A stretch of DNA of 64,000 nt, taken from contig NZ_SOBG01000005.1 of NCBI RefSeq assembly GCF_004365575.1, forward strand, positions 1-64,000, written 5' to 3'. Shown one piece after another: positions 13,745 through 55,745 of this stretch (its first letter is position 1; each line of letters begins with the position of its first letter). Both the position numbers and the translations under genes were made by a program. Below the pieces are notes generated by a model. That model made no database searches and was not told the origin of the DNA. It saw only the letters and a list, made by a program, of their open reading frames with translations. Origin of the DNA: Hypnocyclicus thermotrophus (GTDB taxonomy: Bacteria > Fusobacteriota > Fusobacteriia > Fusobacteriales > Fusobacteriaceae).

Positions 13745-13828
13745 AAAAAGAAAAAGAACCACATAAGAGAAATTTTAAAACTATAAATTTAAAGTTTTTA
13801 ATCTATTGTGGTTCTAAAAATTTTCTTT
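13745..13828. repeat. Nested inverted repeat between kdsA and the ligase-like gene
   Basis: AGAACCACA (13755-13763) pairs with TGTGGTTCT (13807-13815). The arms extend outward through AAAGAAAA/TTTTCTTT-like flanks, and a second A/T stem (AAAACT...AGTTTT) lies in the loop. No clean T-run follows the GC part, so it is a poor terminator on the plus strand. It could be a structured 5' leader of the next gene or a small RNA. Confidence 0.45.
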
Positions 13829-13890
13829 GTATACTTTATATAAGTTCTTTATATATTCAAAAATTTTTAAAATTACAAGAGGGGGATTAA

Positions 13891-15618
13891 ATGAATAAAG
13901 AAAATAGGGTACAAATTATACTTATCTCTATACTTATATCTTTTTTATCATTAGTAGTATTTTTAAAAAAAATACCTTTAAAACCTGGTACTATAGAATA
14001 TTTAGCATGGCCTGTAAGTAATATAAATTATGATTTTTTTTCATTTTATAAATCAAGAATTTTAATTTTATTTGTAGCTTTTGCACTTCCAATTACAGCT
14101 ATAAATAAATGGGGTAAAATAGATTGGAAAAATCATTATTTATTTTTGTTTATATACATATTATTTGCTATTTTATCTGCTGTTTTTTCTCCTTTTCCAC
14201 AATTAGCATATAATGGAGTTGCTGATAGATATGAAAGCTTATCTGTTCTTATTGCTTATATTATGCTATTTTTTATAATTAATAATTCTATTTCAAATGA
14301 AAAAGATTTAAAGTCTATTTTAATTGGGGTGACTATTGTATCAATCGGAGTTGCTTTAATAGGTATTTTCCAATATTATGGATATGATATTTTTTCTTCT
14401 AATTTTGGAAGAAAATTAATTTTACCTAAAGATTTAGAATATTTAGCAAAAAATTTAAGATTTAAATTTCAAAAATATCAAATTTATTCTACTTTATATA
14501 ATCCAAATTATGTAGGTTCTTTTATGACTCTTACTATATTTTTGGGTATAGGGATGTATTTATATCATACAAACATAAAAAAAATATTTTGGTATTTTTA
14601 TACTTTACTTATGTTTGCAAATTTAGTTGGATGTCGTTCTAGAGGAGGATTTACTGGATTTATTTTTTCTCTTTTGATTTTTTCTATATTTTATTTTAAA
14701 TTTATTCTAAAAAATTTTAAACAATTATTATTTTTGTTTTTATCTATTATTTTAGTATTTTATTTAATGAATGTATCTGACAAAGCGGATAAAGTTCTTA
14801 TAAAAAAATATAGTACATATTTTGATAATTTTGATACTGGACTTCGAGATCTTTATATAGAAGGAAATACTGCGATTATTAGAGATAAAAACACTACTTT
14901 AAAAATAGAAAATATTGATAATACCAAAGTTGTGTTTTTAGATATTAATAATAATCAAATAAAAACTAAAATAAAAACTAATACTATTTATCTTTTAGAT
15001 GATAATTATAAAAATTTTAGATTTGAGTTGAAAAAAAATGCTTTAAATTTCAAATATGGAGATACTCATTTCGAATATTTATTAATATTAATGGATAATA
15101 CTTTTAAAACTGTTGATAATCATAATAAAATAATGCCTATTTTAACTGTACCTCATGTAAAACTTCTTGAAGGATATGAAAAAATGGGTTCTTTTAGAAT
15201 ATATAATTGGTCAAGAACAATTCCAATAATAAAAGATACATTAATTTTAGGTTATGGCCCAGACACTTTTTCAATAGTTTTCCCTCAAAAAGATTATTTT
15301 GGAAAGCTTATATCTTATGGCACAAAATCAATTCTTATAGATAAGCCACATAATATGTATTTACAAATAGCTGTAAATACTGGAGTTATCTCACTAATTG
15401 CTTTAATTGGATTATTTTTACATTTTTTTATAAAATTTATAAAAAATAGAGTATCCATACAAAGTAATTCTTTTCCTATATTTATCAGTCATTTTATAGG
15501 ATTAGGAATAATAGCCTATTTAATAACAGCAACTTTTAACGATAGTGTAGTATCCGTTGCACCTTTATTTTGGACATTTTTTGGTAGTTGGTATGGAATA
15601 TTAGAACTAAAAAAATAG
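13891..15618 (+). CDS. O-antigen ligase / polymerase-like membrane protein (Wzy_C family)
   Basis: This 575-residue inner-membrane protein has about ten to twelve hydrophobic helices with a large hydrophilic loop (about residues 305-455). It carries the GRSRGGFTGF-like segment (CRSRGGFTGFIFS) and the PHNMYLQIAVNTG motif typical of the O-antigen ligase family. Members either transfer polymer to lipid A core (WaaL) or polymerise it (Wzy). It may also be a general glycosyl-lipid ligase. Placement after kdsA supports lipopolysaccharide assembly. GAGGGGG precedes the ATG. The family is secure; the exact reaction is not. Confidence 0.82.
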   Translation: MNKENRVQIILISILISFLSLVVFLKKIPLKPGTIEYLAWPVSNINYDFFSFYKSRILILFVAFALPITAINKWGKIDWKNHYLFLFIYILFAILSAVFSPFPQLAYNGVADRYESLSVLIAYIMLFFIINNSISNEKDLKSILIGVTIVSIGVALIGIFQYYGYDIFSSNFGRKLILPKDLEYLAKNLRFKFQKYQIYSTLYNPNYVGSFMTLTIFLGIGMYLYHTNIKKIFWYFYTLLMFANLVGCRSRGGFTGFIFSLLIFSIFYFKFILKNFKQLLFLFLSIILVFYLMNVSDKADKVLIKKYSTYFDNFDTGLRDLYIEGNTAIIRDKNTTLKIENIDNTKVVFLDINNNQIKTKIKTNTIYLLDDNYKNFRFELKKNALNFKYGDTHFEYLLILMDNTFKTVDNHNKIMPILTVPHVKLLEGYEKMGSFRIYNWSRTIPIIKDTLILGYGPDTFSIVFPQKDYFGKLISYGTKSILIDKPHNMYLQIAVNTGVISLIALIGLFLHFFIKFIKNRVSIQSNSFPIFISHFIGLGIIAYLITATFNDSVVSVAPLFWTFFGSWYGILELKK

Positions 15619-47173: not shown

Positions 47174-47250
47174 TGGCGCGCCTAGTAGGAGTCGAACCCA
47201 CAACCTACGGATCCGAAGTCCGCCGCTCTATCCAATTGAGCTATAGACGC
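47174..47250 (-). tRNA. tRNA-Arg (anticodon TCG)
   Basis: Cloverleaf reads on the minus strand with acceptor GCGTCTA/TAGGCGC, the loop CTTCGGA in a 5-bp stem (GCGGA/TCCGT), T-arm GGTTCGA region and an encoded CCA end. The anticodon is TCG. It is the last tRNA of the cluster. Confidence 0.93.
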
Positions 47251-47291
47251 ATATTTTTTTATAAAAAAAAAGTCCAAGTGGACTACTTAAA

Positions 47292-47375
47292 TGGTGCGAA
47301 GGGAGGGACTTGAACCCTCACGTCATAGACACTAGATCCTAAGTCTAGCGCGTCTGCCAATTCCGCCACCCTCGC
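47292..47375 (-). tRNA. tRNA-Leu (anticodon TAG)
   Basis: This 84-base class II tRNA has a long variable arm. The anticodon stem CTAGA/TCTAG holds the loop CTTAGGA, giving TAG. Acceptor GCGAGGG and encoded CCA are present. Confidence 0.93.
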
Positions 47376-47383
47376 AAAATGAA

Positions 47384-47459
47384 TGGTGCGTCATACAGGA
47401 ATCGAACCTGTGACAACACGATTAAAAGTCGTGTGCTCTACCAACTGAGCTAATGACGC
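47384..47459 (-). tRNA. tRNA-Lys (anticodon TTT)
   Basis: Acceptor GCGTCAT/ATGACGC, anticodon stem CACGA/TCGTG with loop CTTTTAA and encoded CCA are all visible on the minus strand. Confidence 0.95.
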
Positions 47460-47470
47460 AAATATTTAAT

Positions 47471-47547
47471 TGGGGTGAACGACGGGATTTGAACCCGCGA
47501 CAACCAGTGCCACAAACTGGCGCTCTACCAACTGAACTACGCTCACC
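47471..47547 (-). tRNA. tRNA-His (anticodon GTG)
   Basis: The anticodon stem CCAGT/ACTGG holds TTGTGGC, giving GTG. The extra 5' G (-1) opposite C73, the identity mark of tRNA-His, is encoded. CCA is encoded. Confidence 0.95.
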
Positions 47548-47552
47548 ATATA

Positions 47553-47628
<76 letters not shown>

Positions 47629-47630
47629 AA

Positions 47631-47707
47631 TGGTCGGAATAGCAGGATTCGAACCTGCGGCCCCCTGCTCCCAAGGCAGGTGCGCTACCGGACTGCGCTA
47701 TATTCCG
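47631..47707 (-). tRNA. tRNA-Pro (anticodon TGG)
   Basis: Acceptor CGGAATA, anticodon stem CCTGC/GCAGG with loop CTTGGGA (anticodon TGG) and an encoded CCA. It is the first gene of the cluster, 13 bases from the predicted transcript start. Confidence 0.95.
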
Positions 47708-48407: not shown

Positions 48408-49529
48408 TCATTCCCCTATGCATAATAATATTATTGATTGATTTAAATGTATTCCTTTGTACTGCTCTCCATAAGATAAAAAACCTGAAAAATCTGATAT
48501 ATTTGCTAAATTATTTATAAAATGTTTTTCTATATTATTTTTTCTATAATTAAGCTCTGTAAGAATACATTGAACAGTAAACATCATATTAACTTTTTTA
48601 AAATCTTTTTTAATATTTTCTAATACAATTTTTTGGCTATCTAAAGGATTCTTTTTTTCCAAAATATTTACAGTAATATTTTCTGGAATTTTAGTATACA
48701 TTTTTATACTTTTATCTGCATTTATTGAAAACACTGTTGATATATAAATATCATCTAAAACAGTTCTACCTAATGGGTGTTTTTGCAAATATTTATTTAA
48801 TCTATTTTCATTTATTCCTAAAAGTTCTGCGTATCTTTCACTAGCCTTTTTATTATCTAACTCATATATTATTCTATTATTAAAGTCTGCTTTTGTTATT
48901 CTAGTTTTTATATCTGTTTTTTTATACATTACGTCTTTGTATGTTTTTATTTTAAAATTTGTTTTTTCAAAATTAAGATATAAAAACAATGATGTATTAT
49001 TTAATAATTCACCATTTAAAGATAAAAATGTTTTTTCAAATCTACAATTATCTCCTCCACTTCCTCCTATTATTTCTAATTTATTTTTAAAAATAGAGTT
49101 TATAATTGATAATACATTTTCTTCTGCTCCAGATAATCCTTCATTAAAGAGTATCCCTACTTCTTTATTAGTATATTTTGATTTTAAATAATTTTTTTTA
49201 TTAAATTCATTTATTATTTGTTGTCTAGATAATATTGGTAAATTTTTTACATCTTCTATACGAGAAATTATATACTCTATACTTTCATAAAATGCTATTC
49301 CTGTAACAGATTTTTTTACAATTCCTGCTTTATTATGGACTTCTCCTGCTGTTGTTATACCTATGATTTCACATTCAATATATTTCTTAGATAGCTTTTC
49401 TGAAATTTCTTTAAAATTTTCAATCTTACTTGTAAAAAATAAAATAAGTCTTAATTTTTTTTTTTCTAATTCTATCCCTTCTATAATTTTCTCTATACTA
49501 TTTTCATTAGAAAAAAAGTTTTTTATCAT
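48408..49529 (-). CDS. FIST domain sensor protein
   Basis: This 373-residue cytoplasmic protein has a FIST N domain (from about residue 20, LRLILFFTSKIENFKEISEKL, with IIGITTAGEVHN and GIVKKSVTGIAFY) and a FIST C domain ending GFLSYGEQYKGIHLNQSIILLCIGE, the family's typical tail. FIST domains are thought to bind small ligands, possibly amino acids, and usually accompany chemotaxis or cyclic-nucleotide output domains. Here the protein ends right after FIST, and the coiled-coil gene overlaps its stop. AGGGGGAG precedes the ATG. The antiporter gene ends 13 bases upstream. Confidence 0.87.
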   Translation of the reverse strand: MIKNFFSNENSIEKIIEGIELEKKKLRLILFFTSKIENFKEISEKLSKKYIECEIIGITTAGEVHNKAGIVKKSVTGIAFYESIEYIISRIEDVKNLPILSRQQIINEFNKKNYLKSKYTNKEVGILFNEGLSGAEENVLSIINSIFKNKLEIIGGSGGDNCRFEKTFLSLNGELLNNTSLFLYLNFEKTNFKIKTYKDVMYKKTDIKTRITKADFNNRIIYELDNKKASERYAELLGINENRLNKYLQKHPLGRTVLDDIYISTVFSINADKSIKMYTKIPENITVNILEKKNPLDSQKIVLENIKKDFKKVNMMFTVQCILTELNYRKNNIEKHFINNLANISDFSGFLSYGEQYKGIHLNQSIILLCIGE

Positions 49530-50992: not shown

Positions 50993-51625
50993 ATGAAAAA
51001 AGTTTATTTTGTTCTATTTTCATTAATATTTATATCTTGTAGCTCTGTAAATCAATACAATAAAACTTTTGATTTTGGTACTGATAAAGGATATAAAGAT
51101 TTAACTATTCTTTTTGATGATGGAACAGATTATTATATTTTAGATAAAAAAATTAAAAATTCAAATACAAAAATTATAACTTCTAAAAATATAAAAAAAG
51201 AAAAAGAAAATATAAAAAAAGATAATATAAATACTACTTTATCAAAAGATTACACAATAAATAATTCTACTAATTTATTTTATCCGTTATCTAATTTTAA
51301 AATAACTAGAAATTTTGATAAAAACGGTAAAAAATCTATTGAAATTGCTAGTTCAGAAAATAAAATAAGTGCTTCAGCGCCTGGAATGGTTATATATTCT
51401 GGAGAAAATTCTAATCTTGGAAAAGCTATTTTTATTTATCACAACAATGGATATATTTCTATTTATTCTCATCTAACAGAATTAAAATATAAAAAAGGTG
51501 ATTATATTAGAGATGTGAATACTACTATTGCTATATTTAATGATACATTTGAATACGAATTAAGAAAAAGAACTGACAAAGGAGTTATTGCTATAAATCC
51601 TATTGAAATACTTAAAAAGAAATAA
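50993..51625 (+). CDS. Degenerate LytM (M23)-like lipoprotein
   Basis: This 210-residue protein has a lipoprotein signal (MKKVYFVLFSLIFISC, lipobox cysteine C16), a linker of about 80 residues and a C-terminal M23-type fold: FYPLSNFKITRNF, SASAPGMVIYSGENSNLGKAIFIYHNNGYISIYSHL, and KKGDYIRDVNTTIAIF. The zinc ligands of active enzymes are missing: the HxGxD place reads KSIEIAS and the final HxH place reads TFEYELRK. It is thus unlikely to cut peptidoglycan. NlpD and EnvC in E. coli are comparable inactive LytM proteins that switch on amidases during division. AAAAGGGG precedes the ATG. Confidence 0.8.
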   Translation: MKKVYFVLFSLIFISCSSVNQYNKTFDFGTDKGYKDLTILFDDGTDYYILDKKIKNSNTKIITSKNIKKEKENIKKDNINTTLSKDYTINNSTNLFYPLSNFKITRNFDKNGKKSIEIASSENKISASAPGMVIYSGENSNLGKAIFIYHNNGYISIYSHLTELKYKKGDYIRDVNTTIAIFNDTFEYELRKRTDKGVIAINPIEILKKK

Positions 51626-51657
51626 AAAAAGAGGCATTTTAAAATGCCTCTTTTTTT
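51624..51657. terminator. Bidirectional terminator
   Basis: AAAAAAAGAGGCATTTT runs directly into its perfect inverse (51624-51640 and 51641-51657). It lies between the converging LytM-like and flagellin-like genes and has T-runs in both directions. Confidence 0.88.
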
Positions 51658-51663
51658 ATAAAA

Positions 51664-52359
51664 TTAATCTTCTAATACATTCATTACTCTAGCTTGAGAT
51701 ACATTTGCTTGAGCTGAAATTGCTTTTTCATCATTAATTTGTTCTTTTAATTCAGATAATTTTTCATTTAATTCATCTGGATTATCAATTCTAGATGAAG
51801 CAGCTATTGTATTTTCTGATGCTATTTGTAGTTTTTTAATTTCTTTATTAAACTTATTAATATTCTCTTTATTTTCAGAACTTCTAGCTAAAATATCATC
51901 TATCGCTTCATCAATAACTTCTAACTTATTGTCGCTTATCCAAAATTCATCAAGACCTAAAGTTTGTAAATTAATTCCGTTTAATGCTTTCTGACTACTT
52001 CCTTGCAAGGACTTGGCTATTTTTTCTACTTCTATAAGCAATGCATCTGCTTTGTCTTTATAATTTACAGATGGTGTTTGTCCTTCTAGCTTACTAGTTA
52101 ATTTTCTTAACTCTTCTAATTTACTTTGGATTTCAGAAAGTTGTCCACTTCCATTTTGTGCAACAGATATTTCAGTTTGATAATACTTTATTTTTCTCAG
52201 TATTTCATTTGTTTTCATTTCGAAGTTTTTCTCCCCAGCTAAAACTTCATCATTCTTAGTTGCACTAGCTTTTTTCAATAAATCAGATCTTTTTTCATAA
52301 TCATTTTTCAGTTTGATATCTTTATATGCAGCTCCTCCATAAGCTCCTGTTAACTTCAT
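51664..52359 (-). CDS. Flagellin-like protein
   Basis: This 231-residue protein resembles flagellin only in its helical parts. The segment YYQTEISVAQNGSGQLSEIQSKLEELRKL matches the N-terminal D1 helices, and KLQIASENTIAASSRIDN...ISAQANVSQARVMNVLED matches the classic C-terminal end (QxxASENTxAAxSRI, LAQANxxxxxVLxLL). The first 55 residues lack the usual INTNxxAL and RLSSGxRI motifs, and there is no variable D2/D3 domain. It may be a filament protein of a minimal flagellum, a capping subunit, or a flagellin relative with another use. The start follows AAGGAGG. Beside it are FliT-like and FliS genes. Confidence 0.75.
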   Translation of the reverse strand: MKLTGAYGGAAYKDIKLKNDYEKRSDLLKKASATKNDEVLAGEKNFEMKTNEILRKIKYYQTEISVAQNGSGQLSEIQSKLEELRKLTSKLEGQTPSVNYKDKADALLIEVEKIAKSLQGSSQKALNGINLQTLGLDEFWISDNKLEVIDEAIDDILARSSENKENINKFNKEIKKLQIASENTIAASSRIDNPDELNEKLSELKEQINDEKAISAQANVSQARVMNVLED

Positions 52360-52430
52360 GTTGACACCTCCTTTTCTCAAAAACCATGTATCATCTACTA
52401 TTATACTATATCTTTATTTACTATTTCAAG

Positions 52431-52781
52431 TTACTTTTTATTTATCCCTGTTTTCATATATGTATTTTTTAGCTTTTTTTCATGATGTAGAGCAATAATA
52501 TCTTTTTTTATATCTCCTATTTTTTCTTTATAAAGTTTTTGATTTCCATTTTCTATATCTAATATTTCCTCTATCAACTCTTTTAGCTCTATTTTTATTT
52601 CGTTATTTAAATTTTTTAATTCTATTTTTTCTAATTTTTTTTTAATTTCTATTTTCTTTTGTGATAAAAGGCTTATATATTCTTCATCTATTTCTTTTTG
52701 ATTTAACTCTCTATTCTCCTCACTAGACAATCTATAAAGTTTTTTATATTCGTCTATAATATCAAGCTCTTCCAAATCCAC
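52431..52781 (-). CDS. Small helical protein, possible FliT-like chaperone
   Basis: This 116-residue protein is all charged helix (LYRLSSEENRELNQKEIDEEYISLLSQKKIEIKKKLEKI...IEEILDIENGNQKLYKEKIGDIKKDI). Length, helicity and the late I..ID/ENGN.L pattern resemble FliT-type export chaperones, and it sits in the usual FliS-FliT order, overlapping the fliS 3' end by 20 bases. Sequence alone is too simple to prove this. The start is the GTG at 52781; a TTG two codons later is also possible. Confidence 0.6.
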   Translation of the reverse strand: MDLEELDIIDEYKKLYRLSSEENRELNQKEIDEEYISLLSQKKIEIKKKLEKIELKNLNNEIKIELKELIEEILDIENGNQKLYKEKIGDIKKDIIALHHEKKLKNTYMKTGINKK

Positions 52782-53196
52782 CTTTTAATCCACCTTTCAC
52801 TCCACCAGTATTTTTTACTGCTACTTTCCAAGTATCTCTTAATTCTTCTAATAATTTTTGAACTTCATCTATTTTTTCTTTATCTTTTTTTAAATTAGCT
52901 TCTACTAATTGACTTAACATATAATCATAAATACTATATAAATTTTGAGCTATTTCTCCACCACTTTTCATATCCAAAGAAGCCATTAATTCTGTTATTA
53001 TATCTTGTATTTTTATTATATATTTATTAGCATTCATTATATTTTTTTCATCAATGCTTATTTTTGCTAATTTACAAAATTTTACGCCACCTTCATATAA
53101 AAGCAATATCAATTGTCCTGGTGTTGCTGTTTGAATTTGAGTATTTTTATACTGTGCATAAGCATTATTTTTGTTGTATGGATTATTATTATACAT
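52762..53196 (-). CDS. fliS: Flagellar export chaperone FliS
   Basis: FliS binds the C-terminal end of flagellin to prevent early polymerisation. The 144-residue protein has the FliS opening AYAQYKNTQIQTATPGQLILLLYEGGVKF, then IMNANKYIIKIQDIITELMASLDMKSGGEIAQNLYSIYDYMLSQLVEANLKKD, a close match to the family throughout. The C-terminus has an unusual Gly/Lys tail (GGVKGGLKGGFGRA). TAGGAGG precedes the ATG. Its presence shows that the neighbouring flagellin-like protein is probably a real export client. Confidence 0.93.
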   Translation of the reverse strand: MYNNNPYNKNNAYAQYKNTQIQTATPGQLILLLYEGGVKFCKLAKISIDEKNIMNANKYIIKIQDIITELMASLDMKSGGEIAQNLYSIYDYMLSQLVEANLKKDKEKIDEVQKLLEELRDTWKVAVKNTGGVKGGLKGGFGRA

Positions 53197-53213
53197 TATT
53201 TTCCTCCTAAAAA

Positions 53214-53972
53214 TTACATAAAAAATCTACCTAAAGTACTACTATACATTCCATTATAAGTATTTTCATCATAAATTTTTTTGTATTCTCCTGTTGCATT
53301 AACAATGGTATAGTACCAATAATAATTTCTTACTAAAAAAAATAGTATTAAAAAATTTAATATATATTTTAAAATATAGCTACTTAATATATTTTTCGAT
53401 ATAAATATTAAATAACTTAACATTAAAAAAATTAATAATTGTTTTACAAGTGCATTATAGCTTCCTTTTTCTCTTTTTATTATTTCTTTTATTTTTACTA
53501 TTGCATATTTCCCAAATTCTTTTGGAATTATTATACTTGTTATAAAAGAATACACTATTAAGGGTATTCTATAGACCAATACTATTAATAAAAGAAATAT
53601 TATTGCAAAAAATGTAAATATATCATTTTTTAATATTCCTATTCCATACATAGGTAAAATAGTCAATACACTTAATAAAGATATATTTATTACTATAATA
53701 AGTATCGCTTCAATTAAGTTTTGAAATATTTTAGGGTAATATATAAGAGAATAGAGAAATATTCTTTTAATATTAATTTTACTAAGCCTTGTTTCATTTT
53801 TTACAATTGATATAAGACCTATTGAAAACATAAAAAACAAAAAATATCCCATTATAGATAACCTTAAATCTATAACTAAAAAACTTATTATGAAATTAAA
53901 AAATAATGCAGAATATAAAATATTTTTATTTCTATTAAAAAATGCAAAAGCTTCTTCATATTTTGTAAGCAT
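53214..53972 (-). CDS. Hypothetical membrane protein before fliS
   Basis: I do not recognise this 252-residue protein. It has about six membrane helices in three pairs (residues about 18-50, 85-110, 118-150, 180-215) with short Lys-rich loops, and a soluble tail YWYYTIVNATGEYKKIYDENTYNG. It lies 17 bases upstream of fliS on the same strand and is probably cotranscribed. The tail pattern and length recall the many DUF975/glycerophosphoryl-type membrane proteins of Firmicutes, without a specific match. It is not FliP, FliQ, FliR or FlhB by sequence. Confidence 0.65.
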   Translation of the reverse strand: MLTKYEEAFAFFNRNKNILYSALFFNFIISFLVIDLRLSIMGYFLFFMFSIGLISIVKNETRLSKINIKRIFLYSLIYYPKIFQNLIEAILIIVINISLLSVLTILPMYGIGILKNDIFTFFAIIFLLLIVLVYRIPLIVYSFITSIIIPKEFGKYAIVKIKEIIKREKGSYNALVKQLLIFLMLSYLIFISKNILSSYILKYILNFLILFFLVRNYYWYYTIVNATGEYKKIYDENTYNGMYSSTLGRFFM

Positions 53973-54050
53973 TTTAATCCCCCTATAAAAATACTACTTT
54001 ACTTTTTTATTTTTTCTAAACCACTTAATTATTCTTATTTAGTTATAAAA

Positions 54051-54863
54051 CTATACTTTCATTATTGCATCTATCATCTTAGCTACTCTTTTTGTTTCTT
54101 TTACATCATGTACTCTCAAAATATTAGCTCCATTTTGTACAGATAATGCTGCCACTGCTAGACTTCCTTCAAGTCTATCATCAGTCTCTACATCTAAAAT
54201 TTTTCCAATAAACGATTTTCTTGAAGCTCCAATAAGTATCGGCAATTCAAATTCTTTAAATTTATTTAAATATTTTAAAATTTCTAGATTATGCTCTATC
54301 GTCTTACCAAATCCTATTCCTGGATCTAATATTAATCTATTTTTTTCAATCGAATACTTATCTAATTTTAATAAGAGAGTCTTAAATTCATCTTTTATGT
54401 CATTTATTATATTATTATAAGTAGGATTATTTTGCATTGTTTGAGGTGTCCCTTGCATATGCATAGCGATTAAATAGCATTCATACTCTTTAACTACTTC
54501 AAGCATCTTTTCATCTCTAAATCCAGTAATATCATTTATTATATCTACATTATACTTTAGACATTCTTTTGCTACTTCACTTTTATAAGTATCAATAGAC
54601 AATATTACATCAAATTCTTTTTTTATTCTAGAAACAATAGGTATTACTCTATCAAGTTCTTCTTGTAACGGTACTACTTTTGCTCCCGGTCTAGATGATT
54701 CAGCTCCTACATCAATAATATCTGCACCTTCTTTTATCATTTCTTCTACTCTAATTAAAGCTTTATCTATATTATTATATTTTCCACCATCTGAAAATGA
54801 ATCAGGAGTCACATTTAATATTCCCATTATTTTAGTATTTTCAAAAAAATCTATTTTCTTCAT
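54051..54863 (-). CDS. folP: Dihydropteroate synthase FolP
   Basis: FolP joins p-aminobenzoate to 6-hydroxymethyl-dihydropterin diphosphate in folate synthesis. The 270-residue TIM barrel has the two pterin-binding signatures ILNVTPDSFSDGGKY and DIIDVGAESSRPGA, then IIDITGF-like NDITGFRDEKM and LILDPGIGFGKT and GASRKSFIG. GAGGAG precedes the ATG. Other folate genes are not adjacent. Confidence 0.97.
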   Translation of the reverse strand: MKKIDFFENTKIMGILNVTPDSFSDGGKYNNIDKALIRVEEMIKEGADIIDVGAESSRPGAKVVPLQEELDRVIPIVSRIKKEFDVILSIDTYKSEVAKECLKYNVDIINDITGFRDEKMLEVVKEYECYLIAMHMQGTPQTMQNNPTYNNIINDIKDEFKTLLLKLDKYSIEKNRLILDPGIGFGKTIEHNLEILKYLNKFKEFELPILIGASRKSFIGKILDVETDDRLEGSLAVAALSVQNGANILRVHDVKETKRVAKMIDAIMKV

Positions 54864-54920
54864 ATATTTAACTCCTCGTATAACTTTTTTCTTCTATAAT
54901 TTTTTAAATTCATTAATTTT

Positions 54921-55745
54921 CTATATTTCCCAATCTCTAGGATATCTAAAGTCTCTATCTATAGTTCTAGCTGATACTTTTGCTATTACTGGTAATTTTC
55001 TTTTGTATTGAGAAAATTTAATTTTTCTATACAATTTTTCTATAAACGGTCTCTCATATCCTTCATTTAATAACTCTTCATATGTTTTTCTTTCATCTAT
55101 CATTGCATAAAGTAATTTATCGGCTTCATAATATGTAAATCCAAGTTCATTTTCATCACTTTGCCCTTCCCAAAGATCAGCACTTGGTTTTTTCTCTATT
55201 ACTTCTTTTGGAACTCCCATATATTCTGATAATGCCCAAACTTGAGTTTTATATAAATCACCTATTGGATTTAATGCTGACGCCATATCTCCATGTTGAG
55301 TTCCATATCCTAATAATAACTCCGTTTTATTTGATGTTCCTAAAACAAGAGCATTTTCTCTTGCTGACATATCATAAAGAATAGTCATTCTTTCTCTTGC
55401 CATTTTATTTCCTTTTCTCATATTATTCATATCAGAAAATTTATTGAAATATGCATCTACCATATCTGTTATCTCTATTAATTCACTTTTTATTTTTGAT
55501 TTTTCTACTACCAATTTTGCGTGGTCTATACTATTTTGACTAGATGATTTATAAGGCATCATTACTCCTAGTACATTTTCAGGCCCTAATGCTTCTTTTG
55601 CAATAAAAGCTACTAATGCAGAATCTATTCCTCCTGATAGTCCTAATACTGCTTTTTTAAATCCTGATTTATGTACTTCTTCTCTTACAAAGTCTACTAA
55701 TATTTTTTGTGTAAGTTCTAAATTTAAATCAAGTTTATTTTTCAT
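54921..55745 (-). CDS. nadE: NAD+ synthetase NadE
   Basis: NadE makes NAD+ from nicotinate adenine dinucleotide, ATP and ammonia. The 274-residue ATP-pyrophosphatase has the P-loop [11 protein letters not shown], the [18 protein letters not shown] segment and [14 protein letters not shown]. There is no glutaminase domain, so free ammonia or another amide source is used. AGAGAGG precedes the ATG. It lies downstream of rbgA. Confidence 0.96.

Follow-up and report, generated by a model that had tools for sequence, protein, structure and literature searches.

A conserved, divergent flagellin paralogue beside fliS in Hypnocyclicus thermotrophus and its possible place in FliS-dependent flagellar export

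Why should a flagellin-like gene lie next to the gene for the flagellin export chaperone FliS, with no motor, hook or export gene seen around it, in a phylum where flagella are atypical? The question is raised by the minus strand of positions 51664-53972 of the 64,000-nucleotide stretch of Hypnocyclicus thermotrophus DNA analysed here (the window), where four co-directional open reading frames encode a membrane protein, FliS, a FliT-like protein and a flagellin-like protein that we term Fll. An initial annotation of this DNA described the genes as isolated and offered two readings: a reduced or repurposed filament system, or a gene island for flagella encoded elsewhere in the genome. We therefore asked which of the two holds, and what Fll might do.

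The fliS cluster and the flagellar genes of the genome

The upstream neighbour of the cluster is folP (dihydropteroate synthase; 54051..54863, minus strand), which is non-flagellar and whose linkage is conserved. It is followed by the gene for a 252-residue membrane protein (53214..53972, minus strand), previously called unknown, and indeed no family match was found in Pfam or NCBIfam. The protein has six predicted transmembrane helices, which are common to its distant homologues, and a conserved C-terminal end (Y-x-G-x-Y...G-[RK]-F-x-M); within the phylum, convincing homologues are confined to the flagellated genomes G001, G037 and G038, and we regard it as a candidate new flagella-associated protein. 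The identity of FliS (52762..53196, minus strand) is beyond doubt and bears out the earlier call of a clear FliS: the protein matches PF02561 at 152 bits (E 8.7e-45) and TIGR00208 at 113.3 bits, above the curated cut-off of 53.75. A genome-wide search identified this gene as the sole fliS copy of the genome, so that its product must also serve the eight filament flagellins described below.

The FliT-like protein (116 residues; 52431..52781, minus strand) is encoded by a frame that shares 20 nt with the end of fliS. It matches PF05400 at 22.9 bits, under the gathering score of 29.5, yet its predicted fold (pLDDT 87.5) is matched best by FliT structures: FliT 3a7m is the top Foldseek match, and in VIA-align the first seven places are taken by FliT or related flagellar chaperone entries (Z 9.5-12.1). 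The earlier call of a FliT-like chaperone can thus be kept, and the protein is presumably a chaperone of FliD. The last gene, fll (231 residues; 51664..52359, minus strand), starts at the ATG at 52359, behind AAAGGAGGTGTCAAC and with GGAGG 7 nt upstream, within the Shine-Dalgarno sequence AAAGGAGGT (52366..52374, minus strand), and not at the TTG at 52380. A sequence scan places a strong intrinsic terminator with a 17-pair stem and a T tail at the end of the cluster (51622..51659, minus strand). Elsewhere in the window, six tRNA genes are clustered at 47177-47707 on the minus strand, tRNAs being the only known RNA families detected in the window, and a 373-residue open reading frame at 48408-49529 encodes what we take, by eye, to resemble a FIST-type sensor protein.

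Across the whole genome (2.22 Mb in 17 contigs), FlhA, FliD and a tandem array of eight flagellins, each with its N- and C-terminal domains complete, are encoded on other contigs. One cluster encodes FlgD, FlgE, MotA, MotB, FliM, FliY, FliP, FliR, FlhB, FlhA, FlhF, CheA and FliA, and FlgM, FlgK, FlgL, FliW and CsrA are encoded together. By its genes, then, the genome has an ordinary, near-complete flagellum gene set outside the window, completeness being deduced from the genes found, with fliF, fliG, fliH, fliI, fliE, flgB/C and the ring genes outside the search. A search of the genome for fliC, flhA/B and motA had been proposed as a check, and all are present.

These genes make a stand-alone reduced or repurposed filament system practically untenable. 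It is true that no further flagellar gene had been noticed in the window, and that searching the whole genome for FlhA, FliD and flagellins yields no other match inside it; however, eight normal flagellins, FlhA, FliD, FlgE, FlgK/L, MotAB, FliM/Y, FliA, FlgM, FliW, CsrA and CheA are encoded elsewhere, and the genome has a single FliS. The alternative, a gene island for flagella encoded elsewhere, is correct, and the cluster can be called isolated inside the window only, flagellins, FliD, FlgK/L and hook, motor, export and chemotaxis genes lying on other contigs. It had also been stated that a complete flagellar gene set with several normal flagellins elsewhere would make this an ordinary late-gene cluster. 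In substance this is the case, with FlhA, many further flagellar genes and eight flagellins lying elsewhere, but the description is incomplete: fll, a divergent paralogue that has been conserved, has a sigma-70-type promoter to itself and differs from a normal filament gene.

Among the filament flagellin genes on contig C6 of this genome (G000), two adjacent copies (L085:12789-13682 and 13788-14681) are near-identical, with tree branch lengths <0.005, and evidently represent a recent tandem duplication. In G001, a relative in the same genus, one flagellin copy (C26:10378-10692, L064) carries an in-frame TAG and is a pseudogene or an assembly error.

Fll as a divergent flagellin paralogue across Fusobacteriota

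Fll covers the whole Flagellin_C model (PF00700), at 18.9 bits, below the cut-off of 23, and has no match to Flagellin_N (PF00669) at E<=1. A profile of five Fll sequences finds PDB flagellins at E 3.9e-24, flagellin filament cores rank top in Foldseek searches with the Fll model, and the predicted D1 matches these cores at Z ~14 (2.7 A over 161 residues). Because of the profile E-value and the D1 Z score, we take the likeness to be homology and not chance, and by profile and predicted D1 fold Fll belongs to the flagellin superfamily. The D1 helices (approximately residues 34-195) are modelled confidently, while the ends are of low confidence (pLDDT under 50), as would be expected of free flagellin. 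Fll has D1 and lacks D2-D3; its conserved N-terminal motif MKLTGAYGGAAY stands where the flagellin ND0 would be, and its C-terminal end reads ...QANVSQARVMNVLED. The earlier description, of a flagellin-type C-terminal end with an atypical N-terminus and no variable domain, is upheld by the sub-threshold but model-wide Flagellin_C match, the PDB profile search, the replaced ND0 and the missing D2-D3. The tree of the flagellin-like protein that had also been proposed, here comprising 23 flagellins and two FlgL sequences, unites the five longer Fll proteins in one group with 100/100 support. They sit on long branches and are separate from every filament flagellin that these genomes encode; with five long-branch sequences, the tree places Fll only as a group and not precisely among flagellins.

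Our sample of relatives consisted of 98 Fusobacteriota genomes. FlhA is present in five of them, spanning four genera and three families, in agreement with the earlier remark that flagella are atypical of fusobacteria; a sixth genome, 70% complete, has flagellins and fliS, and we count six genomes as flagellated. Our search of the literature on flagella in Fusobacteriota found a single report, which describes a Psychrilyobacter that lacks them. Profile searches detect Fll in five of the six flagellated genomes (E below 1e-94) and in none of the non-flagellated genomes among the 98. The sixth Fll, from G037, was found by reading the fliS locus: it is a 110-residue protein that keeps the beginning MLVSGAYGGAYFKN and the end ENTKAAT...AQAGKISQSRILEVLQNE, with D1 absent. 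The relatives named in GTDB are the MAGs K_7_4_bin.55, ZodW_maxbin.210 and Go_Inlet_bin_30.

The order fliS-fliT-fll is found in all six flagellated genomes, downstream of folP wherever the contig shows folP, and in four of the six the membrane protein gene separates folP from fliS; it is missing in genus g6. The flanks of the cluster, which had been called unrelated, are so in function, but the folP linkage is kept in all flagellated relatives. In two non-flagellated relatives, ylqF-nadE-folP is kept and is followed by an unrelated gene (gene names assigned by eye). A horizontally acquired island is not favoured, as the order ylqF/(nadE)/folP-fliS-fliT-fll is common to four genera. Because the gene order at the fliS locus is shared across three families, it suggests that the flagella of Fusobacteriota are old and inherited, not a recent gain, and that they were lost in most of the phylum, including its better-known genera.

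Compared across the six genomes, the Fll sequences form a series of graded loss. The G038 protein is near-normal, exceeding the cut-offs for both Flagellin_N (84.8 bits, matched from model position 19 on) and Flagellin_C (57.7 bits); the window copy is sub-threshold, the G006 and G018 proteins are unrecognised by Pfam, and in G037 D1 is gone. The N-terminal motif M-x-x-h-[ST]-GAYGGA is found at the fll locus only, across the 98 genomes, and G5, A6, E162, A180, E182, N183, A186, A187, S221, Q222, R224 and L229 are invariant in all six proteins. In B. subtilis flagellin, Hag V299 and L300 sit in the FliS interface and their mutation blocks filaments (PMC6070490). By our own reading of the alignment, the corresponding Fll positions are V/M or I/L, and thus hydrophobic, in all six proteins; R304 of Hag, which is also part of the FliS interface, is not conserved in Fll.

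Selection was assessed as dN/dS, calculated by the Nei-Gojobori method for the same-genus genome pair and for G006 versus G018. In the same-genus pair, dN/dS is 0.10 for fll and 0.027 for its last 41 residues, compared with 0.044 for fliS, 0.16 for the membrane protein gene and 0.21 for fliT, and fll is under purifying selection. In the G006/G018 pair the value for fll is 0.23 overall and 0.84 in the C-terminal 39 residues, the last dozen excepted, which indicates that constraint on fll differs between lineages; since the C-terminal end evolves fast in this pair, binding of FliS may there be weak or different.

Expression signals of fll and the leaders of filament flagellin genes

A sigma-70-type site, TTGAAA-18-TATAAT, is located at 52400..52429 (minus strand) and is the best-scoring promoter-like site within 51000-55000. 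In all six genomes TTGAAA-17/18-TATA(A/C)T is found at the same place, 53-71 nt before the fll start, with scores of 10 or 11 of 12, levels that random 130-nt stretches of the window reach in ~8% (10) and ~1% (11) of cases. To judge from this conservation, fll has its own sigma-70-type promoter, and because this is of the housekeeping type, fll is possibly expressed before sigma-28 genes. A scan with a simple sigma-28 consensus gave nothing above chance before the membrane protein gene, fliS or fll. The Shine-Dalgarno sequence of fll is conserved as well. Most flagellin leaders have a predicted CsrA-type hairpin (ANGGA loop) just before, and sometimes overlapping, the Shine-Dalgarno sequence, whereas no such hairpin was found near the start of the fll genes of the flagellated genomes; in two of these genes a short stem was scored ~100 nt upstream, inside or beside fliT.

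Outside the window, most filament flagellin genes are preceded by a structured leader element that fll does not have and that combines an anti-Shine-Dalgarno arm, a covarying helix and the CsrA-type ANGGA hairpin. On the minus strand of contig C6 of G000 (L085) it is found, for example, at C6:148011-148173, 149090-149242 and 150307-150440, and it is also present in L088 (G038), L099 (G001), L100 (G006) and L102 (G018). Predicted folding is much better than that of shuffled sequence in all five leaders tested (z -4.6 to -9.0). The anti-Shine-Dalgarno arm, located 100-250 nt upstream, base-pairs over 7 to 17 nt with the Shine-Dalgarno sequence of the same gene; the two sides co-vary between copies, and for most leaders only 0-3 shuffles in 100 reach an equal result. 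A second helix, TTTAGTnACnAT...GTGGTnACTAAA, comprises 20 pairs in eleven leaders, 13 of them with compensatory changes and 90.7% of cells paired, and its covariation score is 0.578 against 0.13-0.18 for slid controls (0/500 shuffles). A covariance model built without the long-range arm gives matches of at least 50 bits only before flagellin genes of flagellated Fusobacteriota, its other matches being weak and probably due to chance. Rfam gave no match in the flagellin leaders and nothing sensible at E up to 5, and we take the element for a probable cis-regulatory RNA of flagellin translation, apparently unrecorded so far.

A second type of leader precedes one flagellin gene per genome (L085:15995-16227(-), L088:11017-11249(-), L101:1160-1392(+) and L103:4001-4233(+)). 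Here a terminator-like hairpin and T run ~60 nt before the start are followed by the predicted CsrA-type hairpin GACAAGGATGTC, an arrangement that suggests attenuation. Several copies have the upstream stem CCTTAAACACGGAGGTTTAAG, and in G000 a sigma-28-like site lies 297 nt upstream.

Proposed role of Fll and comparison with known systems

The known non-structural flagellins come from a few members of the Proteobacteria and Campylobacterota and are mostly secreted and face hosts or biofilms; D0 and D1 together make up the conserved filament core. We think it marginally probable that Fll is likewise a non-structural flagellin paralogue, one with a role in the FliS branch of export through the flagellum. 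In favour of this are its homology to flagellin and separate group in the tree, the fliS-fliT-fll order in all six flagellated genomes with no Fll in the non-flagellated ones, purifying selection, the hydrophobic positions aligned with Hag V299 and L300, the sigma-70-type promoter and the missing CsrA-type hairpin. FliS would bind the C-terminal end of Fll, as it does that of flagellin, and would pass Fll to FlhA; Fll would then exit via the flagellar channel and not be built into the filament, like Campylobacter FlaC and the Vibrio FHPs. The 110-residue Fll of G037, being without D1, makes the role of a filament subunit implausible in that genome.

It is possible, if unlikely, that Fll instead stays inside the cell as a regulator or co-chaperone: mimicking flagellin, it would occupy FliS before any filament flagellin is produced, or keep FliS folded, and so tune when FliS passes flagellin to FlhA. 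This reading is almost as good as that of a secreted client, and the sequences do not discriminate between the two; the sigma-70-type promoter and the missing CsrA site suit either equally well. Linkage of fll to fliS in all flagellated genomes, a housekeeping-type promoter that could have Fll made before the products of sigma-28 genes, the shortest orthologue retaining mainly the two ends, and the precedent of H. pylori HP1076, which has a flagellin-like fold and docks on FliS (PMC7248283), all speak for a regulator. The Pfam matches of Fll up to E 1, however, include no FliS co-chaperone family, and the conserved N-terminal motif would have no obvious job in a decoy.

Less likely again is a minor structural flagellin produced early from the sigma-70 promoter, such as an adaptor that adjoins the hook or begins the filament. 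The predicted D1 has flagellin geometry, the G038 protein scores strongly on both flagellin domains, and hook-proximal minor flagellins exist (H. pylori FlaB); with D1 nearly canonical in G038, a structural role is conceivable there. ND0, however, is replaced in all six genomes, and D1 is deleted in G037, whose copy cannot pack in the filament wall, which makes this reading the weaker one. A decaying flagellin copy without function might also yield a divergence series down to a 110-residue remnant, but is very improbable: the frame is open in six genomes with a dN/dS of 0.10, promoter and Shine-Dalgarno sequence are conserved, residues at both ends are invariant and the neighbourhood is conserved across three families. 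Purifying selection on fll contradicts a pseudogene.

A further reading strikes us as doubtful: within one phylum, a flagellin would have turned into a FliS-handling signal, with only the export and chaperone-binding ends conserved and the filament-building core being lost, completely in one lineage, and, made from a constitutive promoter, it would occupy or monitor the single FliS before the CsrA-controlled flagellins. An independent lineage that strips the filament core stepwise and retains both ends, fixed beside fliS in environmental fusobacteria, would suggest a function within flagellar assembly, unlike that of secreted proteins that face hosts or biofilms. As a natural series, the Fll proteins should help to dissect what FliS and FlhA require of flagellin. 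What is new would be a variant of the non-structural flagellin whose function we infer from its sequence and setting.

Compared with canonical FliC/Hag, Fll is homologous in its D1 fold and C-terminal end, and the G038 copy lies above both Pfam cut-offs, but the start MxINxN...LERLSSGxRINxAxDDAAGLAI is replaced, the window copy is below both cut-offs, and fll has a separate promoter and no CsrA-type hairpin. H. pylori HP1076 is a FliS partner with a flagellin-like fold; it is likened to flagellin by fold only, and no sequence match to Fll was seen. The Vibrio FHPs FlaE and FlaF are extra flagellin homologues that are exported via the flagellar channel and remain outside the filament (PMC6692518), but they bind exopolysaccharide in biofilms, and Fll has moved much further in sequence from the filament flagellins encoded alongside it in the genome. 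The nearest documented kind seems to be FlaC of C. jejuni, with its Campylobacterales orthologues, likened here by description and not by FlaC sequence. FlaC consists of D0-D1 only, is bound by FliS but not by FliW, and is secreted and remains outside the filament (PMC5466977; PMC4863622). Like Fll, it is a short flagellin homologue without D2-D3, encoded apart from the normal flagellins and absent from non-flagellated species, the FliS partnership being shown for FlaC only. FlaC keeps D0, D1 and TLR5-type residues, whereas Fll has lost ND0, adjoins fliS-fliT and, in one genome, is without D1.
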